Source: Alphaproteobacteria bacterium
GTDB taxonomy: Bacteria; Pseudomonadota; Alphaproteobacteria; Rs-D84
Direction of reading: 5' to 3'
Assembly: GCA_015062495.1 (NCBI GenBank)
Contig: SUUN01000002.1
Location: forward strand, 1-64,000
Length of the DNA: 64,000 bases
Below are positions 17,682 through 59,674 of the stretch, piece by piece. Position numbers and translations under genes: made by a program. The notes under the pieces are model-generated. The model saw only the letters and a list, made by a program, of their open reading frames with translations. It was not told the DNA's origin and searched no databases. Numbering within the stretch: position 1 is the stretch's first letter; the number at the start of each line of letters is the position of its first letter.

Positions 17682-18038
17682 TTAAATTCTTACGCCACCT
17701 GCGCGGATTGCTTCGCACAGTGCCTTAACACGACCATGATAGCGATAACCGCCACGATCAAAATAACAGTTGTCAGCAATCTTAGCAGCAACTACACGTT
17801 CTGCAAATGCTTTACCAACCAGTTCGGCACCGGCAACATTCCAACCCTTGCCTGCAAACGCCTTTTCTTTGGACGAAGCCGCACAGATTGTGTGTCCCTT
17901 GGTGTCATCAATCGCCTGGATTTCAATATGACGACCAGAACGGAAAACTGACAAACGAATCTTGCCAGGATTTTTTCTTTTCAACGCACCGCGATTCGCC
18001 AGTGTACGTCTTTCTTCTGAATTCAAATGTTTCAACAT
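17682..18038 (-). CDS. rplR: 50S ribosomal protein L18
   Basis: 118 aa from the ATG at 18038 ('MLKHLNSEERRTLANRG'), chosen because AAAAAAGGAAAAAG lies immediately upstream; an in-frame ATG at 18062 has no such site. Motifs 'RLSVFRSGRHIEIQAID' and 'DRGGYRYHGRVKALCEAIR' are typical. L18 binds 5S rRNA with L5 in the central protuberance. Confidence 0.97.
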   Translation of the reverse strand: MLKHLNSEERRTLANRGALKRKNPGKIRLSVFRSGRHIEIQAIDDTKGHTICAASSKEKAFAGKGWNVAGAELVGKAFAERVVAAKIADNCYFDRGGYRYHGRVKALCEAIRAGGVRI

Positions 18039-18090
18039 TTTCTTTTTCCTTTTTTCCGACATCCGTAACAGCGGACATCAAAGTTAATTA

Positions 18091-18642: not shown

Positions 18643-18662
18643 AACTTAATCCTCGCTTTTAC

Positions 18663-19061
18663 TTAGATAACCTTGCACAACACTTCACCACCGACGTTCA
18701 TCAAACGTGCCTTGTGGTCTGTCATAACACCATTTGGTGTTGACACGATTGCGATACCCAACCCATTCAATACCTTTGGCATTTTGGCACTACCGGAATA
18801 AACACGACGACCTGGTTTGGATACAACTGAAATTTCTTGGATTGCACCGTTTCCGCCAACATACTTCAATTCAACAACCAAATTTGAACGATGTTCATCG
18901 ATTGCATCAATACGGAAATCAGTAATAAAACCTTCTTCTTTTAATACAGACAAAACAGCCTGACGCAGTTTGCTGTTTGGAACGACGATTGTTTCTTTAC
19001 CTGCATTTTGACCATTACGGATGCGGGTAACCATATCGCCGATTGGGTGTGATAGTGACAT
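18663..19061 (-). CDS. rpsH: 30S ribosomal protein S8
   Basis: 132 aa. N-terminal 'HPIGDMVTRIRNGQNAG' and C-terminal 'VSTPNGVMTDHKARLMNVGG' match S8, a primary binder of 16S rRNA helix 21. In enteric bacteria S8 also represses the spc operon through an mRNA mimic near rplE; I did not identify an equivalent site here. Confidence 0.98.
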   Translation of the reverse strand: MSLSHPIGDMVTRIRNGQNAGKETIVVPNSKLRQAVLSVLKEEGFITDFRIDAIDEHRSNLVVELKYVGGNGAIQEISVVSKPGRRVYSGSAKMPKVLNGLGIAIVSTPNGVMTDHKARLMNVGGEVLCKVI

Positions 19062-19149
19062 CTTTTTTACTCCTTACATGTGTGGGGGAAAATCCCCCTG
19101 CACTGTTTATCTTCCAACTGCATTGTCCACAGTTGTGCTTGTTCTTTTT

Positions 19150-19452
19150 TTACCAGCTAGACTTACGTACACCTGGCAGTTTACCTTCACTGGCCATTGT
19201 ACGCACCTGCTGACGGCACAAACCGAACAAACGCGAGAACCCGCGTGAACGACCTGTGACGCTGCAACGATTGCGCAAACGTGTTGGGTTTGCATTACGT
19301 GGCAATTTTGCCAACTTTTTCATTGCATCGATTCTTTCTTCTGGTGTCGCATTAACAGACATTTTTGCCTTGATTGTTTCACGCTTTTTTGCATACTGCG
19401 CAACCAGCTTTTCACGTTTATGTTGTTTATTAATTAACGCTAATTTCGCCAT
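19150..19452 (-). CDS. rpsN: 30S ribosomal protein S14, zinc-free type
   Basis: 100 aa. The long form lacks the CxxC...CxxC zinc ligands (only '[11 protein letters not shown]' and 'GLCRQQ' carry Cys). C-terminal '[17 protein letters not shown]' is diagnostic. S14 packs in the 30S head near S3 and S10. Confidence 0.98.
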
Positions 19453-19470
19453 CTTTTTTACCTTTTTTAA

Positions 19471-20016
19471 TTATTTCAAAACCAATGGCAAGCCGATTTT
19501 AGTCAGCAATGCACGTGCTTCGTCATCTGTTTTCGCTGTTGTTGCGATAACAATATCCATACCACGAATGGCATCGATTTTATCAACAGAAATTTCTGGG
19601 AAAATCAAATGTTCTTTGATACCGAACGCATAATTACCACGACCGTCGAACTTAGATTTTGACAATCCACGAAAGTCCTTAACACGTGGCAACGCAACTG
19701 TAATCAGTTTATCCAAGAAATCATACATTCTTTTACCACGCAGTGTAACTTTTGTACCAATTTCCTGACCTTCGCGCAGACGATATGTTGCGATTGATTT
19801 TTTCGCACGTGTCTTAACTGCTTTCTGGGCTGCAATCGCTGTCAAATCAGCAACCGCTGCATCCAATTTCTTTTTATCAGACACTGCTTCACCAACGCCC
19901 ATGTTCAAAACGATTTTTGTCAGTTTTGGAACTGCAAACGTATTTTTATAGCCGAATTCTTTAACCAATTCTGGCACAATTTCTTTTTCATAAATTTCAC
20001 GCAATCTGCTTTGCAT
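19471..20016 (-). CDS. rplE: 50S ribosomal protein L5
   Basis: 181 aa. '[19 protein letters not shown]' near the N-terminus and '[19 protein letters not shown]' then '[19 protein letters not shown]' are diagnostic. It binds 5S rRNA with L18 and makes the bridge to S13. Confidence 0.98.
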
Positions 20017-37910: not shown

Positions 37911-38066
37911 TATGTCGCCATTTGAAAATTCATATAATCTGATATATAATAATCGGTAAATATATGGGGACATGTATTTGGGGCCTTAGAAAAGCCTGTG
38001 AAAAAGCAGTGTGATAAAATATCACATTGGAATCCGATTTCAACGATGACGCAATTCGCGCCATTA

Positions 38067-38096
38067 TTGTGCTTATACGATTTGCGCTTAAATAAT
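38067..38096 (+). promoter_or_regulatory. Candidate promoter of the EGF-like Cys-rich gene
   Basis: TTGTGC (38067-38072), an 18-bp spacer and AATAAT (38091-38096). A GTGATA-AAA-TATCAC palindrome at 38011-38025 lies upstream and could be an operator. Confidence 0.4.
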
Positions 38097-38159
38097 ATTG
38101 CGCGACCTTTTTCACATATTTTTCTGACGCCCCACAAACACACCACACACGGGGGACAT

Positions 38160-40235
38160 ATGAGAAAAAAATTCAGCATCACACACATAATATTTTACAT
38201 CACCTACATTGTATTCCCCATACACCTGTGGGGAACGGTCGGTGGCGGTGTATGTGAAAAGATACAAGACTCTAACTCCTGCACCGAGGTTGCCGGTTGC
38301 TATTGGAATTATAATGGTCAAACCGGATCCTGTATCCGTTGTCCCGAAGGGTATTATTGCACAAACAAAGATCGACACTCTTGCAATATAAGCGGCTATG
38401 TACAAACCGGTGGTGTTGACATGCTAGAAATAAACAGTTGGGGAACGGGGCTTGAATCCAAGGAAGAATGCGAAACAAACACCACAGCCACCCTTTACTG
38501 TCCGGCATCACATTATTTTGGACAAAGCGGAACACAGTACAAATGCATACCCTGCACCGCAAAAATGGAAGACGGCACTATACAAACCTCCAAAGTGGAA
38601 GACAACATCAGTAATAAAAAAGATACTATAACCCAATTATTAACGAACTATGGTCGTGCAAAACGTTGCATAACATGTGGCAAAAATGCAGAACCTGACG
38701 ATGACGGCATCGGATGCGTATGCCCAGACGGCTATCAATTCACAGGAAAATCTGAAACACAAGTGTATGACAACACCCAATGCGAACAAAAATCGATCAT
38801 CATAACATGTAATCCAGGCTATTATGTAAAGTCTGGTAAATGCGAACAATGCCCTGTCGGTACATACCAAGCAATGAATAACTTTACCGGCACGGAATGT
38901 ACCCTATGCGACATCGGGTACTCGAATGCATTGCCTGGTCAAGAAACCTGCGATGTCTGTCCCGCTGGCACATATCAAGACAAAACTGGCCAATCATCAT
39001 GCAAACCCTGCCCCACAGGGAAATATCAAAACGAACAAGGCCAATCAAGTTGCAAATCCTGTATCAATGACATAGTAAAACTTACAAATACAGATAAAAA
39101 TTGTTCTCTAACTGCAATAAATGTAACGGATAAGACATCACTTGACAATTGCGAATACACCCTTACATCAGCCCAAGGCTATTATCTAACCCGTGGTGCC
39201 AACGTCGGGGAATATTATCATTTCACATGCAATCAATGCCCCAACCTAACAACCATAGATGCTAAAACAATTACAGGAAACAGAACAGTCTTGTATGACG
39301 AAGTCGGCACAATGGCAGACGGTCATGCATGCAGCACGAACTGTTCATGCGATGGCAAGAATAATAAAGAAGGTGCCTGCATAAACAATGCCGGCGCATA
39401 CAGATGCGAATGTATAGAAGGCTATCACGTAAAGGACGAAACTCGCGATACGATATCCTATAATCCCATCAATGGACAAAAAGATTGCGAAATAAACAAA
39501 TACTATATTCGCTATTACTGCAATTCTGACGATTCAAGCCCCACCAAGGAAATCGAAATAGAATATGGTGGCGAACATTATATTTTACCATCCAACACAT
39601 GTCAAAAAACAGGATATACATTTAACGGGTGGCTCGAAGAAAATTCAAACACAACATACACAAACGAAACATCCCTAATCGTTGACCAAGACTATGTCTT
39701 TAAGGCACAATGGGCGGTTAAAGAATTTAAGGTAAATTACAGCGGGAATGAAAACACAGCTGGCAATGCCCCCAGCGAACCAACAACATGCACGTATGAC
39801 AAACCGTGCAATGCCCCCGACAACACATATATGCGCGCTGGATACATATTTGCGAATAAATGGTCTTGTCAATATATGCCACAGGCGGGGCAAAAATTGC
39901 AACCTTGCTGTAAAACAATCAATTCGATGGGTTTTGATACAGGCACATGCGAAATCTCCCCCGGGACCGACATATCAACAATTTCGGGCGGAAATGATAT
40001 ATTACTTAGCGCAATATGGACCACGTGCCAGGCGGGCTATTATTGCCCTGGCACAAACTCCGACCCAAAAACCGAGCAAAAAAAATGCCCCGCCGGTTCA
40101 ACAACCGCTGAGGGTGCCACTTACATAACCGACTGCCATATGGTCGGTGGCACAACCCAGATTTGTGATACAAACGGATGCTTTACACTGCCCAACACCG
40201 CTGGGAACATATTCTATCAGGGCGCATCACAATAA
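38160..40235 (+). CDS. Large secreted Cys-rich protein with EGF/ephrin-receptor-like and InlB-type repeats
   Basis: 691 aa from the ATG at 38160, behind GGGGGAC; a reading from 37998 has no signal peptide at its front and is rejected. N-terminal signal or anchor 'FSITHIIFYITYIVFPIHLW'. Then tandem Cys modules: 'CPVGTYQAMNNFTGTEC', 'CPAGTYQDKTGQSSC', 'CPTGKYQNEQGQSSC' (GCC2/GCC3, ephrin-receptor-like), and an EGF-like 'NCSCDGKNNKEGAC..CECIEGY'. A segment 'TGYTFNGWLEENSNTTY..VFKAQWA' looks like a Flg_new/InlB B-repeat. The end 'GTTQICDTNGCFTLP' has no membrane anchor. Probably a surface or secreted adhesin-type protein; ligand unknown. Confidence 0.85.
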   Translation: MRKKFSITHIIFYITYIVFPIHLWGTVGGGVCEKIQDSNSCTEVAGCYWNYNGQTGSCIRCPEGYYCTNKDRHSCNISGYVQTGGVDMLEINSWGTGLESKEECETNTTATLYCPASHYFGQSGTQYKCIPCTAKMEDGTIQTSKVEDNISNKKDTITQLLTNYGRAKRCITCGKNAEPDDDGIGCVCPDGYQFTGKSETQVYDNTQCEQKSIIITCNPGYYVKSGKCEQCPVGTYQAMNNFTGTECTLCDIGYSNALPGQETCDVCPAGTYQDKTGQSSCKPCPTGKYQNEQGQSSCKSCINDIVKLTNTDKNCSLTAINVTDKTSLDNCEYTLTSAQGYYLTRGANVGEYYHFTCNQCPNLTTIDAKTITGNRTVLYDEVGTMADGHACSTNCSCDGKNNKEGACINNAGAYRCECIEGYHVKDETRDTISYNPINGQKDCEINKYYIRYYCNSDDSSPTKEIEIEYGGEHYILPSNTCQKTGYTFNGWLEENSNTTYTNETSLIVDQDYVFKAQWAVKEFKVNYSGNENTAGNAPSEPTTCTYDKPCNAPDNTYMRAGYIFANKWSCQYMPQAGQKLQPCCKTINSMGFDTGTCEISPGTDISTISGGNDILLSAIWTTCQAGYYCPGTNSDPKTEQKKCPAGSTTAEGATYITDCHMVGGTTQICDTNGCFTLPNTAGNIFYQGASQ

Positions 40236-46786: not shown

Positions 46787-46811
46787 AAAAATCCCCCAGA
46801 TGGGGGATTTT
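46787..46811 (-). terminator. Terminator of the fibre-like gene array
   Basis: AAAATCCCCC-ATCT-GGGGGATTTT with a T-run on the minus strand, just after the stop at 46816. Confidence 0.9.
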
Positions 46812-46815: not shown

Positions 46816-48594
46816 TTATTCAACCCAAATGGTTGCCCATGACGTCGGATTTGACTCCGCACCATATGGAATACTCATACCCGTCACCGCCGTCGCAACA
46901 CCACCAGAGGTGACATAAACAGGTCTTGTCGTTGTTCCCGCCGCAATATTCGCCGTATGCGTAACCGCCGTACTTTTATCCTGCTTTGTATTCGTCAAAT
47001 TATCAAGCGTATCTCCAATACCTTCATCATACGTGGAAATGGCATCTGATAACTCCGTCTTGGTCGCATAGGTATTCACAATGTTATTACCACTGCCGTC
47101 TTGTGTCGCCTTGGTCGCAGATGCCGCATTACCACTTGTACTTAACTTACCCGCCAGTGCTGTATTCAAAGCAGCCTGTGTCATCGTACCATCTGTGTTC
47201 GTACCTGTACCTGTGTACAACTTGGTCAACCCAGACGTTGTTGCCGTACCAGTGCTATATGTCGTATTGGTATCCGTACCACTAACCGTAATCACACCAT
47301 CACTAATACCAACAGTAACACTACCAGAACCCTTGATGTTCGACGTCGTTAATGTCGCCTGCTTCGTTGCCAAACCATCACTTAACGCAGTCTTGGTCGC
47401 ATAGGTATTCACAATGTTATTACCACTGCCGTCTTGTGTCGCCTTGGTCGCAGATGCCGCATTACCACTTGTACTTAACTTACCCGCCAGTGCTGTATTC
47501 AAAGCAGCCTGTGTCATCGTACCATCTGTGTTCGTACCTGTACCTGTGTACAACTTGGTCAACCCAGACGTTGTTGCCGTACCAGTGCTATATGTCGTAT
47601 TGGTATCCGTACCACTAACCGTAATCACACCATCACTAATACCAACAGTAACACTACCAGAACCCTTGATGTTCGACGTCGTTAATGTCGCCTGCTTCGT
47701 TGCCAAACCATCACTTAACGCAGTCTTGGTCGCATAGGTATTCACAATGTTATTACCACTCGCGTCCGCAGTCGCCTTCGCCGCTGTACCACTATAACTG
47801 GTTATCGCGGTTGCAACACCATTTGAATTTACATAAACCGGAAGCGTCTCAGACCCCGCCGCAGTATTCGCCGTATGCGTAACCGCCGTACTTTTATCCT
47901 GCTTTGTATTCGTCAAATTATCAAGTGTATCTCCAATACCTTCATCATACGTGGAAATGGCATCTGATAACTCCGTCTTGGTCGCATAGGTATTCACAAT
48001 GTTATTACCACTGCCGTCTTGTGTCGCTTTGGTCGCAGATGCCGCATTACCACTTGTGCTTAACTTACCCGCCAGTGCTGTATTCAAAGCAGCCTGTGTC
48101 ATCGTACCATCTGTGTTCGTACCTGTACCTGTGTACAACTTGGTCAACCCAGACGTTGTCGCCGTACCAGTGCTATATGTCGTATTGGTATCCGTACCAC
48201 TAACCGTAATCACACCATCACTAATACCAACAGTAACACTGCCTGAACCCTTGATATTCGACGTCGTTAACTTATCCTGTTTATTTGCCAACGCGTCATT
48301 TGCCGACTTGGCACTGGCTGCTGCCGCTGCTGCACTTGATGCCGCATTCAACGCAGACTGTCCCGCCGCTGCGGCATGTGCCTCGGCCGCCTGGGCTGAT
48401 GCACCGGCCTTGTTCACGGCCTTGTTCACATATGAAACACCCGCAATACCCGCACCATCGGTCGGGGTTTGATCCTCATAAACATCATGCGCCGTACCAA
48501 CGGATTCACCTGACGCAGGCGCATTCGCCCACGCAGAACTGACCGCCAACATTGCCACCAAAGATACCGCAAAAACAAACTTAGTCTTAATCAT
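46816..48594 (-). CDS. Secreted phage-fibre-like repeat protein with 111-aa perfect repeats
   Basis: 592 aa from the ATG at 48594 ('MIKTKFVFAVSLVAMLAVSS' signal peptide). A 'GVSYVNKAVNK' motif and Ala-rich coiled coil ('AAGQSALNAASSAAAAAASA') lead into repeat units of about 111 residues containing 'SVTVGISDGVITVSGTDTN', 'TYSTGTATTSGLTKLYTGTG' and 'MTQAALNTALAGKLSTSG', which read like tail-fibre beta-helical or trimeric repeats. Two adjacent units are identical at DNA level. The C-terminus 'PTSWATIWVE' carries the Trp-type ending shared by the array. Promoter TTGTGC-18-TATAAT upstream. Surface localisation is inferred. Confidence 0.8.
   Translation of the reverse strand: MIKTKFVFAVSLVAMLAVSSAWANAPASGESVGTAHDVYEDQTPTDGAGIAGVSYVNKAVNKAGASAQAAEAHAAAAGQSALNAASSAAAAAASAKSANDALANKQDKLTTSNIKGSGSVTVGISDGVITVSGTDTNTTYSTGTATTSGLTKLYTGTGTNTDGTMTQAALNTALAGKLSTSGNAASATKATQDGSGNNIVNTYATKTELSDAISTYDEGIGDTLDNLTNTKQDKSTAVTHTANTAAGSETLPVYVNSNGVATAITSYSGTAAKATADASGNNIVNTYATKTALSDGLATKQATLTTSNIKGSGSVTVGISDGVITVSGTDTNTTYSTGTATTSGLTKLYTGTGTNTDGTMTQAALNTALAGKLSTSGNAASATKATQDGSGNNIVNTYATKTALSDGLATKQATLTTSNIKGSGSVTVGISDGVITVSGTDTNTTYSTGTATTSGLTKLYTGTGTNTDGTMTQAALNTALAGKLSTSGNAASATKATQDGSGNNIVNTYATKTELSDAISTYDEGIGDTLDNLTNTKQDKSTAVTHTANIAAGTTTRPVYVTSGGVATAVTGMSIPYGAESNPTSWATIWVE
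47057..47722 (-). repeat. Two identical 333-bp tandem repeats
   Basis: 47057-47389 and 47390-47722 appear identical base for base. A third, slightly diverged copy lies at 47975-48273, and a start of another at 47723-47756. The flanking segment 46954-47056 is repeated at 47872-47974. The unit is 111 codons, so copy number can change in frame. Confidence 0.9.
47975..48273 (-). repeat. Diverged third copy of the 333-bp repeat
   Basis: Differs from the tandem pair at a few positions, mostly third-codon changes (for example GTCGCTTTGG versus GTCGCCTTGG). Confidence 0.8.
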
Positions 48595-48642
48595 CAGGAC
48601 ATCCCACCAAATATTTTTCACCACTCTCTGTTTCGTTTATGC

Positions 48643-48672
48643 ATTATATTCAATTTCGCCCATATCGCACAA
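48643..48672 (-). promoter_or_regulatory. Sigma70 promoter of the 592-aa fibre-like gene
   Basis: TTGTGC (48667-48672), an 18-bp spacer and a perfect TATAAT (48643-48648) on the minus strand. Confidence 0.7.
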
Positions 48673-48737
48673 GGACAAAATGACGCATATTGCAAAAATT
48701 TTTTCACAATTTTTGTAATATGGCCAAAATCAAAACC

Positions 48738-48775
48738 TTATCCGGTTTGGGTGGTACACCACCCACCCCGGATAA
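48738..48775 (-). terminator. Two-part hairpin terminator
   Basis: Outer TTATCCGG/CCGGATAA and inner GGGTGG-TACA-CCACCC, then GGTTTTGATTTT on the minus strand. A second A/T hairpin (CAAAAATT...AATTTTTG) follows at 48693-48715. Confidence 0.75.
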
Positions 48776-48788
48776 TATATTCAGGCTA

Positions 48789-50069
48789 TTAATAGGAAAC
48801 CTTTTCCCATTGGATTGTCCCCTCTTTGGCAACCAAAGAACACGTACCTGTGCTACAATAGCTAGGCAAGCCTTCATAATAAGACTTGATAGTTGTCCAA
48901 GTCCCATCCTTGTTACCCAACTGATAATCAGCTGTCGATTTCGCCTGTTTTGTATCAGCTGTTGCCTGGGCATCATCACCGGCTTTTTTCGCCGCCGCTA
49001 CTGCTGCGTTATTTGTTGTTTGATATTCACCCAATGCAGCCGCTGCTGTTGCTTCTGCACCAGATTTTGCAGTTGCTGCTGCAGAATCTGCATACGCTTT
49101 CAAAGTCGTATCCTGAGCACTCTGAGAATCTGCCAACGCATCATTTGTAACATAATCTTTCAATGCACCGTTATCACCAGTAACCGCATTAGCGATTGCA
49201 GTAGAAACTTCTGATGAATTCATAAATTCTGCGTCTGCCGCTGTTTTTGTATAAACATCTGCAGAATTTGCCTTTAACGACAACGCTGCATCGTTGGATT
49301 CGATATAAGCGTCAATATCTGCCTGGGCATCATCACCGGCTTTTTTCGCCGCCGCTACTGCTTCAGCATTTGTTGTTTTATATGCATCCAAATCTGCCTG
49401 GGCATCATCACCGGCTTTTTTCGCCGTCGCTACTGCTGCATCATTTGTTGTTTTATATGCATTCAATGCAGCCGCTGCTGTTGCTTCTGCACCAGATTTT
49501 GCAGTTGCTGCTGCATCAGCTGCTACAGAATCTGCATACGCTTTCAAAGTCGTATCCTGAGCACTCTGAGAATCTGCCAACGCATCATTTGTAACATAAT
49601 CTTTCAATGCACCGTTATCACCAGTAACCGCACTAGCGATTGCTGCTGAAACTTCTGATGAATTCATAAATTCTGCATCTGCCGCTGTTTTTGTATAAAC
49701 ATCTGCAGAATTTGCCTTTAATGCCAACGCCGCATTGTTGGATTCGATATAAGCGTCAATATCTGCCTGGGCATCATCACCGGCTTGTTTCGCCGCCGCT
49801 ACTGCCGCATCGTTTGATGTTTGATAAGAAGTAAAGCTGGACGAAAGTTCATCAATAACTGTACCATAACCATCATCCATAGTAGTCATCCCATCCTTCA
49901 ACTCGTTAATAGCACCAACCAAGTTCGTTTTTTCTGTCGTAGTCAAATTGCTCAACGTACCGGCAGTCGCCGTAATCTGCTTACCAACATAGTCTGTTGA
50001 TGCGATTTCTGCGTTTGCTGCGCTGACCGCCATCATTGCAAACAGAGATACTGTTAATATTTTTTTCAT
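48789..50069 (-). CDS. Secreted Ala-rich coiled-coil protein of the fibre-like array
   Basis: 426 aa. Signal peptide 'MKKILTVSLFAMMAVSAANA', then 'EIASTDYVGKQI' (the array's N-terminal motif). Long heptad-type repeats follow ('AAAKKAGDDAQADIDAYIES', 'AEFMNSSEVSAAIASAVTGD'); the unit 'KDYVTNDALADSQSAQDTTL' occurs twice. C-terminal domain 'YCSTGTCSLVAKEGTIQW' has a C-x4-C pair and Trp. Probably a trimeric surface fibre. No barrel or LPXTG anchor is present, so attachment must come from a partner. Confidence 0.78.
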   Translation of the reverse strand: MKKILTVSLFAMMAVSAANAEIASTDYVGKQITATAGTLSNLTTTEKTNLVGAINELKDGMTTMDDGYGTVIDELSSSFTSYQTSNDAAVAAAKQAGDDAQADIDAYIESNNAALALKANSADVYTKTAADAEFMNSSEVSAAIASAVTGDNGALKDYVTNDALADSQSAQDTTLKAYADSVAADAAATAKSGAEATAAAALNAYKTTNDAAVATAKKAGDDAQADLDAYKTTNAEAVAAAKKAGDDAQADIDAYIESNDAALSLKANSADVYTKTAADAEFMNSSEVSTAIANAVTGDNGALKDYVTNDALADSQSAQDTTLKAYADSAAATAKSGAEATAAAALGEYQTTNNAAVAAAKKAGDDAQATADTKQAKSTADYQLGNKDGTWTTIKSYYEGLPSYCSTGTCSLVAKEGTIQWEKVSY

Positions 50070-50130
50070 TTTTCTTTCCTTTCTTTCTTGTTTTGTCTTT
50101 GGTTTATTTGATTTTTTTTATTTATGCCGT

Positions 50131-50152
50131 GGGCGAACCACCACCCACGACA
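50131..50152 (-). other. Hairpin in the leader of the 426-aa gene
   Basis: CGTGGG/CCCACG stem without a following T-run on the minus strand; a possible mRNA 5'-UTR structure. Confidence 0.35.
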
Positions 50153-50175
50153 CAAAATTTCACGTGGCGTGATTA

Positions 50176-51222
50176 TTATTCACCTTCACGCGCAATCAGT
50201 TCCCAATAGTAAGTCGCCTGACCATTTGCCGACGTAGCGGTCAAAACATACTTACCATCTGTTTCATTTGCAGCCGTTGGAATTGTCAATTTTTCTGCCA
50301 AGGATTCAGACAATCCTGTAACCTTAGAAGATGAAACAGCCGAAATCTTTTCGTCGGTAACAGCACCATTTGCAATCTTGCCAGATTGAACCGCGCCATC
50401 TGCCAATTTAGCCGTTGTCACCGCCAAATTATCAATATCATCTGTACCAACGGTATCTTTATATGCCAACGCCTTCAAGCTCGATTTCAACGCATAAGAT
50501 GTCAAAGCCGTTTCCATCGCAGAGGTTTTCGCATACTGATCCAAATTAGCCGCCGTGAACGCATCTGCAATGGATTTTGCAACAGAACCCGTCGTATTTT
50601 CATCGCCATTCAACGTTGCAATCGCGCTTGTATTGGTTGCAATATTTGCCGCATTTGTTTCAACCGCCGTTTTATCACCCTTTAATTCCAAAGCCGCATT
50701 CAAATCTGTTGTTGTGGTATAGTCACCCAACGCAGTTTCAATAGCACCAGAAACCTCTTCTGCATTCTGGAATGAATCAATCTCTGTCTGCAAACTTTCA
50801 TCCAACTTTGCCTTAGAAATAGAGCCATCCTTCAAGGTTAACGAACCACCCTGAACATTTTCAATATCCTGTTGCAAGGTTGCAACCTTGGCAACCAGGC
50901 CATTTGTTTCATCGTTAACCGTTGTTTCCAACGCATCAATATCCTGTTCAGCAGTTGCAATTGCATCCGCATTCGCCTGAACAGCCGCATCATTGGTTGT
51001 CTTATAGCCAGCCAAATCATCCGCAACGGCCTTGGTCGCATTTTCGGCTGCGGTTTTATTATTTGTAACGGTTTGTGTTAATGACGTAACGGCCGATGTA
51101 ATTGAACCTTGTTCACCAACAAAACTGTCAACATAGCCCTTAGATGCAACGGCTGCGTCTGCACCAGATGTCGCACACAGGCCCAACATAACGGTAAATA
51201 TACCAGCTGTTAATTTTTTCAT
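50176..51222 (-). CDS. Secreted coiled-coil protein of the fibre-like array
   Basis: 348 aa. Signal peptide 'MKKLTAGIFTVMLGLCATSG', mature motif 'AVASKGYVDSFVGEQGS'. Mostly helical heptads ('ENATKAVADDLAGYKTTNDA', 'VAKVATLQQDIENVQGGSLT'). A segment 'TAKLADGAVQSGKIANGAVT' resembles the 'L.DGAVT..KIA.GAVT' repeats common in phage tail fibres. C-terminal 'KYVLTATSANGQATYYW' fits the array's ending. RBS GAAGGGAAGG, promoter TTTACA-18-TAGGAT. Confidence 0.78.
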   Translation of the reverse strand: MKKLTAGIFTVMLGLCATSGADAAVASKGYVDSFVGEQGSITSAVTSLTQTVTNNKTAAENATKAVADDLAGYKTTNDAAVQANADAIATAEQDIDALETTVNDETNGLVAKVATLQQDIENVQGGSLTLKDGSISKAKLDESLQTEIDSFQNAEEVSGAIETALGDYTTTTDLNAALELKGDKTAVETNAANIATNTSAIATLNGDENTTGSVAKSIADAFTAANLDQYAKTSAMETALTSYALKSSLKALAYKDTVGTDDIDNLAVTTAKLADGAVQSGKIANGAVTDEKISAVSSSKVTGLSESLAEKLTIPTAANETDGKYVLTATSANGQATYYWELIAREGE

Positions 51223-51252
51223 GATTTTCCCTTCCCTTCATTCGGTTATTTC

Positions 51253-51282
51253 ATCCTATCATTTTTTGCCAATGTGTGTAAA
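51253..51282 (-). promoter_or_regulatory. Candidate promoter
   Basis: TTTACA (51277-51282), an 18-bp spacer and TAGGAT (51253-51258) on the minus strand; a CGATTCGT motif lies just upstream (51291-51298). Confidence 0.5.
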
Positions 51283-51315
51283 GACAAAAAACGAATCGGA
51301 TGAAATATTTTTAAA

Positions 51316-52362
51316 TTAGTTAGACGCCGTTGGTGTTGCGGTCAATGGTGTCCATGCAAAAGTACCATCCGATGTCATAGACAGAACACAAGTATTGGAT
51401 TCAGACTGACATTCCTCTGGGACATTCGCCGTCGCCAATAATGTCAGAGTATCCGCATTTGCTTTCTTGGCAATTTCTTCTGTATTCGTTGCAACCTGGG
51501 CAACAGTTTCAGTTGTAACACCGGAATTCACCGCCGCCAATTGCCCCTCGGTCAAAGTATCCTGTTTGCCAGACAAAGCAGATGTTGCCGCCTGGTCAGC
51601 TTCCTTACGCGCTGTTTCTTCTGCAGTCAAGGCGGACTGTTTTGCATAATCAGCCAACGTTGTATTTAAAACTGCTGTTGTTGTGTAATCCGCAAATTTT
51701 GCATCAACATCACTCAAAGCAGTTTTTGTCGCAAATGTTGAATCTGCGTCTGTTTTGGAATAAACGTCGGCTGTATTCGCCTTGCCGGCAACCGCATTTG
51801 CGATATCTGTTGCAACCTGAGTTTTATCGGCCTTTAAAGCCAAAGCATTATTAACATCTTGGGTTTTGGCATAACCTTCCAAGGAAATATTACCTTCGCC
51901 AATATCTGTCAAAGTTTGCGAAACGTAAGCCTTTACTTCATCCTGGGTATAAGTTTGTGTTTTTGCATAAACACTATCTACATCAGCCTTGGTTGCCAAT
52001 AATTCATTTGCTTCCGTTTTTGTATAAACATCGGCTGCATTTGCCTTGGTTGCTACAACTTCTTCCAAAGCATCAACTTCGTCCTGGGCCTTGTCTGCTG
52101 CTGCCTGTGCTGTTGCAACCGCGCCATCTTCGGCTGCGATAACATTTGTAATCTGCTGGCTTACCTGTGTTTCTGTCAGGTATGTATCAGCCGCTGCTTC
52201 CTTGGTCAGATAATTATTTGTGATGTTTTCAACAGATGTCGAAACCTCACCAATTTTGCTGTCAACATAGCCCTGGGACGCAACAGTAACCGCCGCGTTC
52301 GCACCGGTGACGCCTAAAATCGCCGCCATTGCGCCTGAAAACATGATGTTTTTTACTTTCAT
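51316..52362 (-). CDS. Secreted coiled-coil protein of the fibre-like array
   Basis: 348 aa. Signal peptide 'MKVKNIMFSGAMAAILGVTG', mature motif 'VASQGYVDSKIGEVSTSV'. Coiled-coil blocks 'ALKADKTQVATDIANAVAGK' and 'DVYTKTEANELLATKADVDS' resemble the 'K.DVYTKTE.D' helices of phage fibre and adhesin stalks. C-terminal 'CQSESNTCVLSMTSDGTFAW' has a Cys pair and Trp. Close in signal sequence to the 697-aa member (MKVKNI...FSG), indicating recent duplication. Own promoter at 52402-52431. Confidence 0.78.
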   Translation of the reverse strand: MKVKNIMFSGAMAAILGVTGANAAVTVASQGYVDSKIGEVSTSVENITNNYLTKEAAADTYLTETQVSQQITNVIAAEDGAVATAQAAADKAQDEVDALEEVVATKANAADVYTKTEANELLATKADVDSVYAKTQTYTQDEVKAYVSQTLTDIGEGNISLEGYAKTQDVNNALALKADKTQVATDIANAVAGKANTADVYSKTDADSTFATKTALSDVDAKFADYTTTAVLNTTLADYAKQSALTAEETARKEADQAATSALSGKQDTLTEGQLAAVNSGVTTETVAQVATNTEEIAKKANADTLTLLATANVPEECQSESNTCVLSMTSDGTFAWTPLTATPTASN

Positions 52363-52401
52363 TTTTTTCCTTCCTTTCTTTCGTTTTTTTTATTTTGTTT
52401 T

Positions 52402-52431
52402 ATTTTACCATTTTTCAGCGAATCGCGTCAA
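52402..52431 (-). promoter_or_regulatory. Sigma70 promoter with CGATTCGC in the spacer
   Basis: TTGACG (52426-52431), an 18-bp spacer beginning CGATTCGC, then TAAAAT (52402-52407), for the gene at 51316-52362. Confidence 0.65.
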
Positions 52432-52449
52432 TGGCTAAATATGCTCTTA

Positions 52450-54102
52450 TTAATTGTTATTCAACGCACCCGCAATAACAACCCATGTCAAATTACCTTC
52501 GGTATCCGACGACAGTGCACACGCCCCAGATGCCGACTTACATGCCTCGGTCGGGGCTGGGATTGCTGCATATGCAACAACACGGACATCTTCAACCGTT
52601 TCATCCAATTCGGCAATGTCGGCGGTATTTGTGCTAACCTGGGTTTGCAGTGTAGACAGATCGCCCGCCACTTCGTTCACCTTGGTAACCGCCGCATTTG
52701 CAATCGTCTGGGACACTGCGATTGATGGATACTTGGTTGCCTTGTCCGCAGAACTCATGGCTTCAATCTGTTCAGCGGTGGCGTCTGAGACCTTGTTCGC
52801 AACCATTTCCACATCCGCAGATTTTGCATAATCAGTCAATGCTGCATCGGTAATATAACCCGCGTCATTTTCAAATTCCGAAACCTTGGTTGGGATTGTC
52901 GGTATTAATAATTCCACCGCATCAATCGCCGCCGTTAATTCCGCATCGGTCGCGTATGTGTCGCCCAGTTTGCTGATTGTTTCCTGGATTGTGGTAACTG
53001 TGGATGCATCTGCCTTGCCAGACTGCAATGCTGTAACCGCATCTTCCAGTGTTTTCAAATCTGCCGCAACCAGATATTCACCCTTGGCCTGCTTTTCATC
53101 AATGGCCGCCTGTAATGTCGTCTGCAAATTCGTCAAATCCTGATCCGTTGCCAAACCTTCAATTGATGGGATTTCTGGTTTGTCATTCAAATCATTATAT
53201 GAACCAGATGTCGCAACCGCCGCCAAATCGGATAATTTTACATACCCTTCCAAACTTGGGATACTAATCGCATTAATTTTGGCCAACAATTCTGCGTCCG
53301 CCGTCGTCATATCAGTTTTGGTCGCATACGTGTCGCCCAGTTTGCTAATTGATTCCTGGATTGTGGTAATTGTGGATGCGTCTGCCTTGCCAGACTGCAA
53401 TTCCGCAACCGCATCACTCAGTTCTGTCAAATCCGACGCAACCAGATAGTCACCGGCAATCTGCTTGTTCGCAATTTCTGTTTCCAATGCAGAACGCAAA
53501 TCTGTTAAATCCTGATCCGTTGCCAAACCTTCAATTGATGGAATGTCTGGTTTGTTCGTCAAATCAGCATATGAACCCGATGTCGCAACCGACGCCAAGT
53601 CCGCAGTTTTTGCATACGCAGACAAATCAATATTATCAATCGCCGACTGAACATTCGCAATCGCCGTGCTTACTTCGTCATCTGTGGCATATGTGTCACC
53701 CAATGCGTCAACTGTGTTTTGTAACGCTTCCAGGTCTGCAACCGTGGCCTTGCCCGATTCCAATGCAGCAACCGCTTCGTTCAATTCTGTCAAGCTGTCC
53801 GCCGTTAACACATCGCCTACATTCGCCTTGGAATCCAATGCCGCCTTTAATTCATTAATAGCCGGAATTGCCAATTTAGCTTCTGTATCAAGGGTCAACC
53901 ATGCACCAGACGAGTCCTTGGTATTCAACATATCACGCAACAAAAGAATGTTGTTTTGCAGAGACTTATCCTGCTTATCAACATAGGTTTTCGTCACAGT
54001 TACCGAATACGCAGGACTAGCGATCAAAGCCGCAATTAAAGAGAATAATAAAAAATTTGTTTTCTTAACCATTTTTCGCGCCAATTTCACAATTGCTCCC
54101 AT
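52450..54102 (-). CDS. Secreted phage-fibre-like repeat protein of the array
   Basis: 550 aa if started at 54102; 'MVKKTNFLLFSLIAALIASP' at 54072 is an equally good signal-peptide start, and a GTG at 54090 has GGGAG ahead, so the start is uncertain. Mature motif 'VTVTKTYVDKQDKSLQNN'. Repeats of 'VATSGSYNDLNDKPEIPSIE' and 'SGKADASTITTIQESISKLG'; the 'SGSYNDLxDKPxIP' motif is well known from phage tail-fibre proteins. C-terminal 'CKSASGACALSSDTEGNLTW' gives the array signature. Ends without an anchor. Confidence 0.78.
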   Translation of the reverse strand: MGAIVKLARKMVKKTNFLLFSLIAALIASPAYSVTVTKTYVDKQDKSLQNNILLLRDMLNTKDSSGAWLTLDTEAKLAIPAINELKAALDSKANVGDVLTADSLTELNEAVAALESGKATVADLEALQNTVDALGDTYATDDEVSTAIANVQSAIDNIDLSAYAKTADLASVATSGSYADLTNKPDIPSIEGLATDQDLTDLRSALETEIANKQIAGDYLVASDLTELSDAVAELQSGKADASTITTIQESISKLGDTYATKTDMTTADAELLAKINAISIPSLEGYVKLSDLAAVATSGSYNDLNDKPEIPSIEGLATDQDLTNLQTTLQAAIDEKQAKGEYLVAADLKTLEDAVTALQSGKADASTVTTIQETISKLGDTYATDAELTAAIDAVELLIPTIPTKVSEFENDAGYITDAALTDYAKSADVEMVANKVSDATAEQIEAMSSADKATKYPSIAVSQTIANAAVTKVNEVAGDLSTLQTQVSTNTADIAELDETVEDVRVVAYAAIPAPTEACKSASGACALSSDTEGNLTWVVIAGALNNN

Positions 54103-54141
54103 TTATTTATAAGAGAAACAGCATTTTGCTACTCTCTAATC

Positions 54142-56235
54142 CTACATATCAAAACCACTATCGCCCATCAAATCCAATGTATCCAGCCAATCATAACCTT
54201 CTGGTTTACCATCTTCACCGATACTCAACATCAGCACATATTCACCATATGTTGTTGGTGTTGCTGTCGGATTCGGAACAAATGACGAAGTATCAACACT
54301 TGCAGAAATCGTATTATCTGTAATGGTAATACCCGCACCAGCAGTCAATGTATCTTGCTTGGCATTCAGTTCGTCTTTGGTTGCCAGCGTTGCCGTTGCC
54401 GTGTCAATTGCTTGGGAAACTTGGGTCGATGTCTGATAACCGGCCTCGTTAATAGTCTTGATATCGGCTGTATTCGTACTGACCTGGGTCTGCAACGATG
54501 ACAAATCACCTGCAACTTCGTTCACCTTGGTAACAGCCGCATCTGCAATTGTCTGCGCCACGGCAATCGATGGATATTTCGATTGCTTCTCGGTCGAACC
54601 CATCGCTTCAATTTCATCAGCGGTGGCCGACGAAACCTTGTTCGATACACTTTCCTTGCCCGCCAAAGCCGCTTCAACATCCGCTGTTTTTGCATAGTCC
54701 GCCAGGCTTGGGATTTCAATTGCATCAATTGCATTCTGTAATGCAGTATCCGCCGCGGTCATATCAGACTTGGTGGCATATGTATTGCCCAGATTGTTAA
54801 TTGTTGTTTGAATCGTTTCAACCGTGGATGCGTCCGCCTTGCCAGACTGCAATGCTGCAACCGCATCATTCAGTGTTTGCAAATCTGCCGCAACCAGATA
54901 TTCACCCTTGGCCTGCTTTTCATCAATCGCCGCCTGTAATGTCGCCTGCAAATTCGTCAAAGCCTGTTCGGTTGCCAAACCTTCAATTGATGGAATTTCT
55001 GGTTTGTCATTCAAATCATTATATGAACCAGATGTCGCAACCGCCGCCAAATCAGATGACTTTACATACCCTTCCAAACTTGGGATTTCAATTGCATTAA
55101 TTTTGGCCAACAAATCTGCATCCGCCGTCGTCATATCAGACTTGGTTGCATATGTATTACCCAAATTATTAATTGTTGTTTGAATCGTTTCAACCGTGGA
55201 TGCGTTTGCCTTGCCAGACTGCAATTCCGCAATCGCATCATTCAGTTCCGTCAAATCCGCCGCAACCAGATATTCACCCTTGGCCTGCTTATCTTCAATT
55301 GCCGCTTCCAAGGTTGTTTTTAAATTTGCCAACTCTTGATCTGTTGCCATATCCGCAATCGCTGTGGTAATCGCACCCTGAACATCAGTTGATGTCTGAT
55401 AACCTGCGCTCTTCAACGCATTAATTTCGGCTGTGTTGCCATTAACCAGTGCCGTCAATGCATCCAACGCAGATGTTGTCGCATATCCATCCAAATCAAT
55501 TTCACCACCGGCCACTGCATCCGCAATCTTTTGATCAATTACATCTTTGGTATAAACATTGTTCTTTAATGTGCCCAGCTCAGTCGATATCGCTGTCAAT
55601 GCATCCGCCGTGGCATAATCACCAGAATCCTGCTTTTTCGCAATTTCTGTCTCCAATGCAGTACGCAGTTCAGTCAATTGTGTGTTTGTTACCAAATTCG
55701 ACACATCTGGAATCTTAATCGCATCAATTGCCGCCTGTAATCTTTCCTCGGCCGATGTTAATTCAGATTTTTTTGCATAATCCGCAGAAATCGTATTAAC
55801 CGTTGTTTGCAAATTTTCAACAACCGTTTTGTCAACAGTACCGCTTTGCAACGTTTCAACCGTTGTCTTTAACGTTTCCAATTCTGCCGCATCTGCATAA
55901 TCACCCTTGGCCTGCTTGTCATCAATCGCCGCCTGCAACGTTGTCTTCAAGTTATTCAAATCCGTTTCAGTCAGATAACCCGCTGCCTTTAAATCTGCAA
56001 TATCCAGTGTATTCTGATTCACCTGTGTCGCAACCGTATTCAAAGATTCCTGGGTAGCCTTTTGACCAACCGTCGTTTCCAACGCTTCCAAATCAATCAA
56101 GTTTGCCTTACCCGCCAACTGCGTATCAACATACGACTTACTTGCCAGATTAACCGATGCCGCATCCGCCGCACCGCAAAGGCCCGCAAATATCATGGCC
56201 GCAAATCCTGAAAAAGCAATATTCTTAACTTTCAT
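54142..56235 (-). CDS. Largest secreted fibre-like repeat protein of the array
   Basis: 697 aa. Signal peptide 'MKVKNIAFSGFAAMIFAGLC', mature motif 'NLASKSYVDTQLAGKANL'. Multiple units combine 'LQAAIDEKQAKGEYLVAADL', 'LQSGKADASTVETIQTTINN' and 'SGSYNDLNDKPEIPSIEGLA'. These repeats are also in the 550-aa neighbour, so the genes probably exchange sequence by recombination. Ends 'YVLMLSIGEDGKPEGYDW' and a short acidic tail. Follows the 692-aa gene after 34 bp, which suggests co-transcription. Confidence 0.78.
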   Translation of the reverse strand: MKVKNIAFSGFAAMIFAGLCGAADAASVNLASKSYVDTQLAGKANLIDLEALETTVGQKATQESLNTVATQVNQNTLDIADLKAAGYLTETDLNNLKTTLQAAIDDKQAKGDYADAAELETLKTTVETLQSGTVDKTVVENLQTTVNTISADYAKKSELTSAEERLQAAIDAIKIPDVSNLVTNTQLTELRTALETEIAKKQDSGDYATADALTAISTELGTLKNNVYTKDVIDQKIADAVAGGEIDLDGYATTSALDALTALVNGNTAEINALKSAGYQTSTDVQGAITTAIADMATDQELANLKTTLEAAIEDKQAKGEYLVAADLTELNDAIAELQSGKANASTVETIQTTINNLGNTYATKSDMTTADADLLAKINAIEIPSLEGYVKSSDLAAVATSGSYNDLNDKPEIPSIEGLATEQALTNLQATLQAAIDEKQAKGEYLVAADLQTLNDAVAALQSGKADASTVETIQTTINNLGNTYATKSDMTAADTALQNAIDAIEIPSLADYAKTADVEAALAGKESVSNKVSSATADEIEAMGSTEKQSKYPSIAVAQTIADAAVTKVNEVAGDLSSLQTQVSTNTADIKTINEAGYQTSTQVSQAIDTATATLATKDELNAKQDTLTAGAGITITDNTISASVDTSSFVPNPTATPTTYGEYVLMLSIGEDGKPEGYDWLDTLDLMGDSGFDM

Positions 56236-56269
56236 AATCCTTTCCTTTCTTTACACAGTTTTGCAACCG

Positions 56270-58348
56270 TTATTCCGCATCAACCGTTACAGAAACCCAC
56301 GATGAAGTTCCATCCCCATTGGACATCAGCATCACCATTTCGCCCTCGGCCGCACCAGTATTAATTTTATCAGATGTAACCGCGCCCGCCTGAATCTTGT
56401 CCGCAGTAATCGAACCATCTGGAATTTCATATGCATTCATTGCATTTGAAACCGTGGTATCAACCTGGGTCGTCGTCACATACTGATTCATATCTGGCGC
56501 ACCTTCTAAATCTGCATAGTTACCAGATATCGCAACCGGCGACAATTCAGATTTCTTGACATAATCCGTCAAAGACTCCGTCAGGGCCGTCAACCCATTT
56601 GACAATTCTGTATCCTTGGCTTCCAATGCCGCCTTGGCTTCATTCAGTGCCGCAACCGTCGCATAGTCTGACAAATCAATTTCACCACCAGACACCGCAT
56701 CCGCAATCTTTTGATTGATTTCTTCACGCGTATAAGAATCATTTTTCAATTCTGCCAACGCATCCGAAACATCCTGCAACGCACCAGATGTCGCATAATC
56801 ACCCGCATCGGCCTTGGCATTAATCTGCGATTCCAACGCAGTGCGCAATGTCGTCAAATCATCCTGGGTTATCAGTGTTGGTTTATCCGTCAAATCATTG
56901 TACGAACCCGTTTTCGCCACATCTGCCAAATCTTCCAATTCCGCCGCATTCAAATTCGCCAAATTCTGGGCCGCATCTGCCGCCACCTTGGCCGCATCCG
57001 CAGCAGACTGCGCTGCTTCTACCTCGCTCGTAATAGACGCCGTAATGATATCCAAAGCACCCTGTTTTACATACCCTGCATCATTTTCAAACTCAGAAAC
57101 CTTGGTTGGCACAACCGGAATATCGCCCTTGGTCGCGAACTTTGCATCCGCTTCTGCCTTGGTATAATAATTCGTTAATTCAATCTGCCCCTTATTAATA
57201 TTATCAATCGCGGCCTGCAATTCAGATTTTGCAGTTTCCAACTCACCCTTGGTCGCCAAATTTGCTATTTTAGCATCAATCGCCTGCGAAACCTGATCCG
57301 CTGTCTGCAAACCTGCAATCGCCTGCGTCACATAATCAGAAGTTATAAAATCTTTGACCGAATCCTTGGTCGCCAATTTTGCCATCTCTGTTTGCAATTC
57401 AGTAATTTCGCCCTTGGTCGCCAAATCCTGAATCATCGACTCAACCGCATCAGACTTCACAAAATCCTTAATCTGTTCCTGTGTCGCCACATCTTCCAAC
57501 TGCGCCATCACAGATTCAACCTGTGAACTCAAACCTTCTACATCTTCTTGCAATTGCGATACTGTTTCGCCACTTGCACCACCACTTTGCAATCCCTCAA
57601 CCGTCGATTCCAAATCAGCAACACGATTTAACAAATCATCCGACGCAATATCACCCAAACCATCAACTGTCTTTTTCAACGATTCCAGCCCAGTTTCCAA
57701 CGTCGCAATCGCCGTTTCATTTGCAGACACACGCCCCGTCAACGTATCCAGCGCATCCTGCAAGGCTTTCAACCCTTCAAACGACGCAAAACCACCGGAC
57801 CACACTTCTTTATCGCCCTGGCTGATTGTCAGTTTACCATCTTCTTCCTCAACCGAAATTCTATAACCACCATCGGTCATATCATTCAAATCTTTTTGTA
57901 ACTGTTTTACATCAACCTGCATCTGTTCAATATCAATCAACAGATCGCCAAACTTACCATCATATTCGCCAAGCCCCAGCACTTCTTCCAATTTCGTCAC
58001 GCGCTGTTCGACACCTGCCTGGCCTAAGTTACCACCACTGGACGGCTTACTACTAACCGCACTGGACGACGCCAAATATTTTCCAATGGACAAACGTGGA
58101 CTGGCCGCGGCGCGCGTCGATGTTGACGCTGTCGTTGTTGTATCACCGACACGCATCGAACCACCACGCACAGTGGATTTCGCAGCACTGGTTGATTTCG
58201 ACCCCGTTGACGCGGCACTGGACGCACTTGAATAAGTCCCCGCCCCACCCAAGGAACGCACCGCCGGCGCACCAAACGATGGCATTGCCATCGCTGTGCA
58301 CAACACGCAAACTATTGATAGTGTTGATATTTTTAATTCGTTTTTCAT
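56270..58348 (-). CDS. First gene of the fibre-like array, Ser/Thr-rich head with coiled coils
   Basis: 692 aa. Signal peptide 'MKNELKISTLSIVCVLCTAM', then a low-complexity Ser/Thr/Ala region ('TYSSASSAASTGSKSTSAAK') instead of the YVD motif, and a coiled coil ('LLIDIEQMQVDVKQLQKDLN'). Tail-fibre-like elements 'SGNYADLEGAPDMNQYVTTT' and 'DKPTLITQDDLTTLRTALES' follow. 'SITADKIQAGAVTSDKINTG' matches phage fibre knobs. The end 'MVMLMSNGDGTSSW' is the shared C-terminal signature. The different N-terminus and 5'-most position may mean a distinct role. Promoter TTGACC-18-TAAACT. Confidence 0.78.
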   Translation of the reverse strand: MKNELKISTLSIVCVLCTAMAMPSFGAPAVRSLGGAGTYSSASSAASTGSKSTSAAKSTVRGGSMRVGDTTTTASTSTRAAASPRLSIGKYLASSSAVSSKPSSGGNLGQAGVEQRVTKLEEVLGLGEYDGKFGDLLIDIEQMQVDVKQLQKDLNDMTDGGYRISVEEEDGKLTISQGDKEVWSGGFASFEGLKALQDALDTLTGRVSANETAIATLETGLESLKKTVDGLGDIASDDLLNRVADLESTVEGLQSGGASGETVSQLQEDVEGLSSQVESVMAQLEDVATQEQIKDFVKSDAVESMIQDLATKGEITELQTEMAKLATKDSVKDFITSDYVTQAIAGLQTADQVSQAIDAKIANLATKGELETAKSELQAAIDNINKGQIELTNYYTKAEADAKFATKGDIPVVPTKVSEFENDAGYVKQGALDIITASITSEVEAAQSAADAAKVAADAAQNLANLNAAELEDLADVAKTGSYNDLTDKPTLITQDDLTTLRTALESQINAKADAGDYATSGALQDVSDALAELKNDSYTREEINQKIADAVSGGEIDLSDYATVAALNEAKAALEAKDTELSNGLTALTESLTDYVKKSELSPVAISGNYADLEGAPDMNQYVTTTQVDTTVSNAMNAYEIPDGSITADKIQAGAVTSDKINTGAAEGEMVMLMSNGDGTSSWVSVTVDAE

Positions 58349-58428: not shown

Positions 58429-59145
58429 TTAAAATTCATACCGCAATCCAACCGATATCGAGTTATCCAAAATCAGCCCAATATCATTGCTGATATCGTA
58501 TTCATTACCGTCCAGATACTCAAACTGGCGCGTATGTTCTGGCCCCCACAGCATCGCCAAACGATAACGGAAATCCAACAACAAATTATAATCCAGATGA
58601 TATGACCAACCCGCCATCAAACCAACCATTGGCGAAACATTACGCTCTGAACTGTCACCACCTGTAAAGAAAGTCCCCTGCCAGCGCACCTTGGGCAACG
58701 CAACACCCAATCCAGCCCCAACATACAGACCATTTGCAAAATCATAATACCCATTTGCCATTACATACGGAACTGTCAACTTAAAGGTCGTCCCAACATC
58801 TTCTTCTTCAAATTCGGAAATAATACCAGCCTCAACTTCGGCACGCCAAAAATAATTAAATGTACGACCTGCAAAAACGTTCCCGCCCAACAACAGTTCT
58901 GTAAAACTTTCTGACCTATCTAATTCTGACGCGTTTGGCGCACTGGTACTATATTCATTTTCCCAGTTCATTATATTTAAATCCAGTCGTCCACCGATAT
59001 ACCAGTGTCCAACCTCGGCCCGGTCTGTGTAATCATATGTAACCTTGTAAACGCCATCCTGGCCACGTTGCAAATAATTAGGCGCCGCATTCGCCGCAGT
59101 TGTTGCCAATGCCATTACACCCAAAACAGATACTATTTTTTTCAT
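58429..59145 (-). CDS. Outer-membrane beta-barrel protein
   Basis: 238 aa from the ATG at 59145, with GGAGGG at ideal distance; the earlier in-frame ATG at 59169 overlaps the promoter and is rejected. Signal peptide 'MKKIVSVLGVMALATTAANA'. Amphipathic strands such as 'VGHWYIGGRLDLNIMNWENE', 'NGLYVGAGLGVALPKVRWQG' and the C-terminal 'SISVGLRYEF' ending in Phe. An OmpA/opacity-like 8-strand barrel is the best guess. It lies upstream (in transcription) of the seven fibre-like genes, so it might anchor or export them, but that is inference. Confidence 0.82.
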   Translation of the reverse strand: MKKIVSVLGVMALATTAANAAPNYLQRGQDGVYKVTYDYTDRAEVGHWYIGGRLDLNIMNWENEYSTSAPNASELDRSESFTELLLGGNVFAGRTFNYFWRAEVEAGIISEFEEEDVGTTFKLTVPYVMANGYYDFANGLYVGAGLGVALPKVRWQGTFFTGGDSSERNVSPMVGLMAGWSYHLDYNLLLDFRYRLAMLWGPEHTRQFEYLDGNEYDISNDIGLILDNSISVGLRYEF

Positions 59146-59169
59146 TATACACCCTCCATTTTTTCCCAT

Positions 59170-59278: not shown

Positions 59279-59674
59279 ATGAAAAAATATTTGGTTATTT
59301 TGGCGGCACTGTCCATCAACGCATGTACACACGTCCCATCCGACATATCCGGACATCAGGTTTTTTTCGACTTTGATTCAGCAAAAATTTCCGACGACGC
59401 ACGCGATGAACTGGAATCCCAGGCATTATATATGAAGAAAAACCCAGACACCACCATTGTAATCGAAGGTCGCTGCGACGAACGTGGTTCAACTGAATAC
59501 AATCTGGCATTGGGTGCATTGCGCGCCGGCAACGCTGCCCACGTAATTATCCAGGACGGCGTTGAATCCGAACGCATCAAAACAGTATCTTATGGCAAAG
59601 AAAACCCAATCTATCCGGGCACAGGCGAAGAAGTCTGGTCAAAAAACCGCAACGCCACAACCCGTGTAAAATAA
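59279..59674 (+). CDS. Pal-like OmpA-family lipoprotein
   Basis: 131 aa. Lipoprotein signal 'MKKYLVILAALSINAC' with Cys16 as the lipidation site. Then the OmpA peptidoglycan-binding domain: 'VFFDFDSAKISDDARDEL', 'IEGRCDERGSTEYNLALG' and 'VSYGKENPIYPG'. The 'GRCDERGSTEYN' signature is that of Pal; it links outer membrane and murein and works with TolB. tolB is only 4 kb away but on the other strand, so the usual tol-pal operon is broken. RBS AAAGAAAGGA; terminator at 59679. Confidence 0.9.
   Translation: MKKYLVILAALSINACTHVPSDISGHQVFFDFDSAKISDDARDELESQALYMKKNPDTTIVIEGRCDERGSTEYNLALGALRAGNAAHVIIQDGVESERIKTVSYGKENPIYPGTGEEVWSKNRNATTRVK

Follow-up and report, generated by a model that had tools for sequence, protein, structure and literature searches.

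A conserved array of exported, shaft-variable fibre proteins linked to an outer-membrane barrel gene in one family of reduced-genome Alphaproteobacteria

The 64,000 nucleotides analyzed here (the window) open contig 2 (SUUN01000002.1) of an alphaproteobacterial genome of 0.90 Mb that is 97.7% complete (GCA_015062495.1). The nearest named relatives of its LepA protein are an uncultured "Rickettsiales" metagenome-assembled genome (MAG) and other alphaproteobacterial or proteobacterial MAGs, one of a rumen series (L001 to L003). The window carries an array of seven consecutive open reading frames (ORFs), all on the minus strand and all encoding Sec signal peptides, as the first-pass annotation had described and as the ORF listing, coordinates included, and inspection of the sequence confirm. 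That annotation took the proteins for phage tail-fibre modules turned into an exported surface system, possibly with a neighboring outer-membrane barrel as partner. Our analysis recovers a real and family-restricted system of exported fibres that evolves rapidly and is partnered by an outer-membrane barrel; its shafts resemble those of phage fibres, but its proteins as wholes are bacterial. The barrel gene (OMP), the seven fibre genes (A, B, B2, C, D, E, and F), a recurrent C-terminal module (the cap) and adjoining features are as follows.

58429 to 59169, minus strand: OMP, which opens the unit and encodes a small outer-membrane beta barrel (probable start at 59145; Pfam Opacity above cut-off)
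56270 to 58348, minus strand: gene A, 692 aa; signal peptide, VRSLGGAGTY, low-complexity linker, RLSIGKYL, coiled-coil and fibre-repeat shaft (alignment A2)
58073 to 58099, minus strand: PRLSIGKYL motif of gene A, residues 84 to 92
54142 to 56235, minus strand: gene B, 697 aa; signal peptide, LASKSYVD, shaft with SGSYNDLNDKPEIPS; C terminus unlike the cap
52450 to 54102, minus strand: gene B2, 550 aa; signal peptide, TVTKTYVD, shaft in common with B, C-terminal cap (52471 to 52599, E 8e-12)
51316 to 52362, minus strand: gene C, 348 aa; signal peptide, VASQGYVD, coiled-coil shaft, C-terminal cap (51331 to 51462, E 5e-13)
50176 to 51222, minus strand: gene D, 348 aa; signal peptide, VASKGYVD, coiled coil and DGAVQxxKI/NGAVTxxKI repeats, C-terminal cap (50179 to 50328, E 3e-12)
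48789 to 50069, minus strand: gene E, 426 aa; signal peptide, IASTDYVG, shaft rich in Ala that contains a duplication of ~430 bp, C-terminal cap (48792 to 48917, E 7e-11)
46816 to 48594, minus strand: gene F, 592 aa, which closes the unit; signal peptide, shaft of beta-type repeats, C terminus ...SWATIWVE (an IWVE/IWVQ end occurs in 20 orthologues, which were assigned to class F by that end itself)
46937 to 48270, no strand: repeat of ~333 bp in three near-identical copies within gene F (97.4 to 99.5% identical)
46788 to 46811, no strand: terminator-like hairpin directly 3' of gene F, 10-pair stem, T-rich on both sides (the longest stem in a consensus scan that found 18 sites against 13.6 expected across the region)
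59279 to 59674, plus strand: Pal-like OmpA-domain lipoprotein, divergent neighbor of OMP (Pfam OmpA, 3e-20)

The ORF of gene F spans 46816 to 48624, which gives 592 aa from the ATG at 48594 and 602 aa from an upstream GTG. From OMP through F the genes lie on a single strand with intergenic gaps of 34 to 194 bp, and the G+C content of the array (43 to 48%) is the same as that of its surroundings, and thus gives no sign of recent foreign DNA. Neighbors of the locus are lepA, rbfA, a gene for a VTT-domain membrane protein, the pal-like gene, ftsE/ftsX, a plsC-like gene, and tolB.

Gene order was read at 36 loci of the genus and in L002 and L003. The order at the genus locus is FtsX-FtsE-(Pal)-OMP-A-B-C-D-E-F-VTT-RbfA-LepA, and OMP-A-B-C-D-E-F is an operon-like unit and a conserved bacterial gene set. 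The OMP gene is present in 48 of the 59 genus genomes; in about 30 it shares a contig with LepA, at a distance of 1 to 16 kb. Gene A lies immediately downstream of OMP in all 31 loci that could be judged. In two sister genera (G080 and G112) the unit instead adjoins trxB (thioredoxin reductase) with the order OMP-A-D/E-F retained; that barrel and array recur side by side at another place in the genome is the strongest indication that they belong together, and it upholds the suggested link to the barrel at 58429. A Pal-like gene often adjoins OMP, also at a relocated unit in L204, and is absent beside OMP at several loci. The unit consists of OMP and A alone in some lineages and of OMP by itself in others; it is missing from L003, G046, and G059, where FtsE, VTT, and RbfA are adjacent. 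The OMP protein scores 24 bits against Pfam Opacity (cut-off, 21), 24 of 30 orthologues match OMP_b-brl, and a search by sequence found no solved relative. The linkage of OMP to the array suggests that the two may be physical partners.

Judged by eye from sequence, all seven array proteins begin with a basic N terminus that leads into a hydrophobic core and an AxA-like site; none has a lipobox. The motif ASxxYVD, reported earlier for most members, follows the signal peptide exactly in three genes (54142, 51316, and 50176) and in near forms in two (IASTDYVG at 48789 and TVTKTYVD at 52450); the first (56270) and last (46816) genes have N termini of other kinds. Most members thus have a conserved Tyr-containing motif close to the mature N terminus. 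The gene A alignment (A2) has six invariant columns and defines the module VRxLGGxGTY, and an [RL]LS[IL]Gx[YF]-type motif occurs in 32 of 32 gene A orthologues. The remaining classes begin in their own ways: B/C with MKVKNIxFSGFxAAIL, D with MKKLTAGIF, and E with MKKILTxSLVAMMAVSAANA. Two further exported proteins (window positions 7422 to 9254, and L223 positions 17758 to 19998) start with an R(M)PTMSAxxN-type motif similar to the RLSIGKYL of gene A; these motifs are possibly a common envelope-binding signal.

At the other end, B2 through E have in common the cap, C-x5-C-VL...W-x-x-I (alignment A1), in which Leu and Trp are invariant and the Cys pair is mostly kept (it is replaced in gene D). 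A cap profile matched 62 of 114 genomes of the order, every one within a single family, and in a class-wide sample of 385 genomes its matches were limited to this genus; comparison with PHROG and PDB returned zero relatives and zero credible relatives, respectively. No cysteine lies in the middle of any of the 70 proteins of classes B/C, D, and E (27,349 residues altogether), and 54 of the 70 have at least two within the last 60 residues; array cysteines are confined almost wholly to signal peptides and cap. This pattern is that expected for a disulfide in an exported cap, and the cap would be a small beta domain, disulfide-bonded in most B2-E orthologues.

Between these ends the proteins change quickly. 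In orthologue pairs the N-terminal 45 residues (N45) are usually well conserved, often matching flanking genes for A and B/C, and the shaft middles drop to 10 to 50% of alignment length between species. The L142/L154 pair, whose flanking FtsE is 94% identical, illustrates the range: N45, middle, and the C-terminal 45 residues stand at 100, 68 (of alignment length), and 80% for class C and at 67, 30, and 47% for class D. Products of recombination are seen directly. The two copies of the gene E duplication (~430 bp) are 92% identical, B and B2 have 508 bp in common at 87% identity, and between the near relatives L143 and L157 (flanks about 94 to 95% identical in DNA) a deletion of ~1.8 kb at a common repeat has fused the N terminus of E to the C terminus of F. 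Genome G014 has 24 cap-profile matches. About 20 copies are dispersed in this species, and the eleven loci read, on several contigs (L187 to L197), hold at least twelve D-like genes that lie singly or in pairs between housekeeping genes, frequently close to a contig end; most have ~300 bp of upstream DNA in common, and they are a recently expanded family. In G023 (L202, 6418 to 9162) an E-F-VTT segment is tandemly repeated and the N terminus of RbfA is fused to an E-type shaft, through either real duplication or assembly error.

The heptad stalks described earlier were recovered in part. Pooled orthologue shafts of A, B/C, D, and E give a hydrophobic spectrum with a peak at 3.5 residues, 1.7 to 2.3 times that of shuffled sequence; among single proteins only two of seven show heptad periodicity (z 2.9 to 3.7), most being not significant, and the pooled signal of class F is weak, its shaft looking beta-type instead. 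The shafts of A and F are built of collagen repeats in sister genera (Pfam PF01391; lowest E value 3e-29, highest score 101 bits, cut-off 27.2). Collagen is obligately trimeric, and phage-type shafts of these kinds are trimeric in known proteins; by that analogy, the array proteins probably form homotrimers.

The fibre repeats noted at first are indeed present, with SGSYNDL(N/T)DKP in 52450, 54142, and 56270 and DGAVT/DGSIT..KI in 50176 and 56270. SYNDLxDKP, DGAVTxxKI, and the collagen-associated LSAYExAxxxGFxGTxxEW, all found in the shafts, are typical of phage fibres. Such repeats are what one would expect if a prophage tail locus had been captured, had gained signal peptides, and had been kept as an exported fibre system, and the shafts do match tail-fibre and tail proteins weakly. 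These matches stop at the shaft, however. When four array proteins were compared by tblastn with 50,697 phage records, B and F had no match and D and B2 only short matches within the shaft; the phage match was weak, at 28% identity across a stretch. PHROG matches of the seven proteins were likewise weak and mostly to families of unknown function or to tail or head families. Scans of IMG/VR with genes A and B returned no members, a single 23-residue match of the gene A N terminus to viral sequences was treated as chance, and the N- and C-terminal modules had no phage relatives in the searches made. Since the resemblance is confined to shafts and whole-protein matches are absent, the proteins as wholes are, on sequence evidence, bacterial, and the claim that the modules were taken from phages was not borne out. 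Phage ancestry of the shafts themselves is possible, convergence and repeated capture being indistinguishable in these sequences. As repeats of this sort also arise through convergence or piecemeal capture, and as housekeeping genes surround every locus read, we regard wholesale domestication of a tail locus as unlikely. A cryptic prophage, or a phage-derived defence element still bound to phage biology, is very improbable: its sole support is the likeness of the shafts to tail fibres, against which stand chromosomal synteny fixed across the genus, a signal peptide on every member, and the lack of nearby phage genes and of members in viral collections. No capsid, tail, or lysis genes were found near the array in the window, in agreement with the first-pass annotation, or in the related loci read, where homologues inside intact prophages were sought and none was seen; a prophage was accordingly rejected.

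A different alternative concerns location. The coiled coils might remain in the periplasm and link or space the envelope layers together with Pal-like and barrel proteins, a view favored by the presence of a Sec signal only, by the Pal-like gene that adjoins the unit in many loci, and by an operon without an outer-membrane translocator. Yet Pal does not accompany the unit at every locus, periplasmic tethers with collagen or phage-fibre repeats would be unusual, and the fast change in shafts and copy number better fits exposure to a changing environment, so we consider a periplasmic spacer or tether rather unlikely. Globular periplasmic enzymes were rejected, no enzyme family scoring over cut-off among the array proteins.

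On balance, we favor the view that the genes form a lineage-specific, operon-like unit encoding an outer-membrane barrel together with variable exported fibres that have exchangeable rods. The unit would yield the OMP barrel and four to seven exported fibre proteins, each cleaved by signal peptidase and then headed by a short N-terminal module specific to its position (VRxLGGxGTY in A, otherwise ASxxYVD). An exchangeable rod would follow (a heptad coiled coil, phage-fibre-like beta repeats, or a collagen triple helix), probably trimerizing and ending in the small, mostly disulfide-bonded cap. Repeat recombination would lengthen, shorten, and swap rods while the ends are retained, and the resulting variable fibres may serve for adhesion or evasion at the surfaces of hosts or protists. 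The architecture and variability of the proteins suggest this role in adhesion or antigenic variation, and the fibres, probably trimeric, may be surface exposed and in physical contact with the barrel.

Several points weigh against this operon-like unit of barrel and surface fibres. Structural models are poor and cannot confirm the trimer or the cap: an AlphaFold2 model of gene D (predicted local distance difference test [pLDDT], 47) has, at low confidence, long helices and a C-terminal beta hairpin, and a single-sequence model of the barrel has a pLDDT of 30. The operon includes no known anchor or translocator, and its proteins could remain periplasmic; barrels of this small, 8-strand family are too narrow for a trimer to pass. 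The array is absent from genus members G002, G046, G057, G059, and L003 and is therefore not essential. A secretin, the export candidate discussed below, occurs in 50 of 50 genomes tested, including those without an array, so that its phylogenetic profile is uninformative and does not tie it to the array.

For passage of the fibres through the outer membrane, the best candidate is the lone secretin together with its TcpQ-type neighbor, from a type IVb pilus apparatus; the genome has one secretin and one Omp85 protein. The lipoprotein secretin adjoins the TcpQ-family gene at L220 (3981 to 6568), and elsewhere on the contig lie three consecutive large pilin-like proteins of 403 to 451 aa (L223, 11840 to 15707; G000, contig 2, 357,840 to 361,707), for which a search by sequence found no solved relatives. 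Together these genes apparently represent a type IVb pilus system, and machinery of the pilus/secretin kind is thus present in the genome. In the toxin-coregulated pilus (TCP) system of Vibrio cholerae, TcpF binds a trimeric minor pilin via a short mature N-terminal segment with key aromatics and is carried through the secretin (PMC9565799). Like TcpF and CofJ (PMC9565799), array proteins have a Sec signal and a short mature N terminus with a conserved aromatic, and the genome holds the TCP-type secretin/TcpQ pair; unlike them, they are long rods encoded elsewhere, TcpF and CofJ being globular and encoded within the pilus operon. By analogy, the mature N-terminal aromatic motif would act as the TcpF/CofJ secretion signal does, a route that we propose tentatively and hold to be doubtful. 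The full scheme, an undescribed surface-fibre system in one family of reduced-genome gut Alphaproteobacteria in which N-terminal tags specific to each position direct every fibre to a slot of its own, shafts recombine freely, and exit is via the type IVb pilus secretin, is speculative and quite improbable as a whole.

Other genes were encountered: a VirD4-like type IV secretion coupling protein above the Pfam cut-off (L223, 6303 to 8552), a small VirB2-like membrane protein identified by eye only (L219, 1901 to 2320), and, at 37998 to 40235 in the window, an apparently exported protein of 745 aa whose cysteine-rich Ephrin_rec_like and Listeria-Bacteroides repeat domains are unusual for a reduced alphaproteobacterial genome.

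Several known systems come close to the array. Phage tail fibres with coiled-coil, beta-repeat, or collagen-like shafts are alike in shaft repeats and long modular design (and in the trimeric state proposed here), but the array has signal peptides, bacterial synteny, and N- and C-terminal modules of its own, and lacks virion genes. Trimeric autotransporter adhesins (YadA and BadA) likewise have a Sec signal peptide and exported, modular coiled-coil stalks that evolve fast. In contrast to them, the array has no C-terminal self-translocating barrel, a separate small barrel gene preceding it instead, and no YadA-family Pfam anchor, head, or stalk matched in the seven genes or scanned relatives; a YadA-type autotransporter was rejected for want of a matched C-terminal membrane anchor. 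The Msp2/p44 family of Anaplasma and the lipoprotein families of Mycoplasma are recombining surface proteins with conserved ends, variable centers, and expansion. The array shares these traits, recombination and expansion included, but differs in protein architecture, and no expression site or silent cassette was identified in it. Searches of the literature by repeat motif and family feature turned up no account of this fibre system.

Genomes of ~0.9 Mb devote some 11 kb to these genes and keep their arrangement across the genus, and the system therefore probably matters for life in the gut. It also offers a natural series of fibres in which conserved ends are combined with interchanged shafts of different trimeric folds (coiled coil, beta repeat, and collagen), and poses the testable question of how rods that are exported by Sec but have no known anchor arrive at the cell surface.

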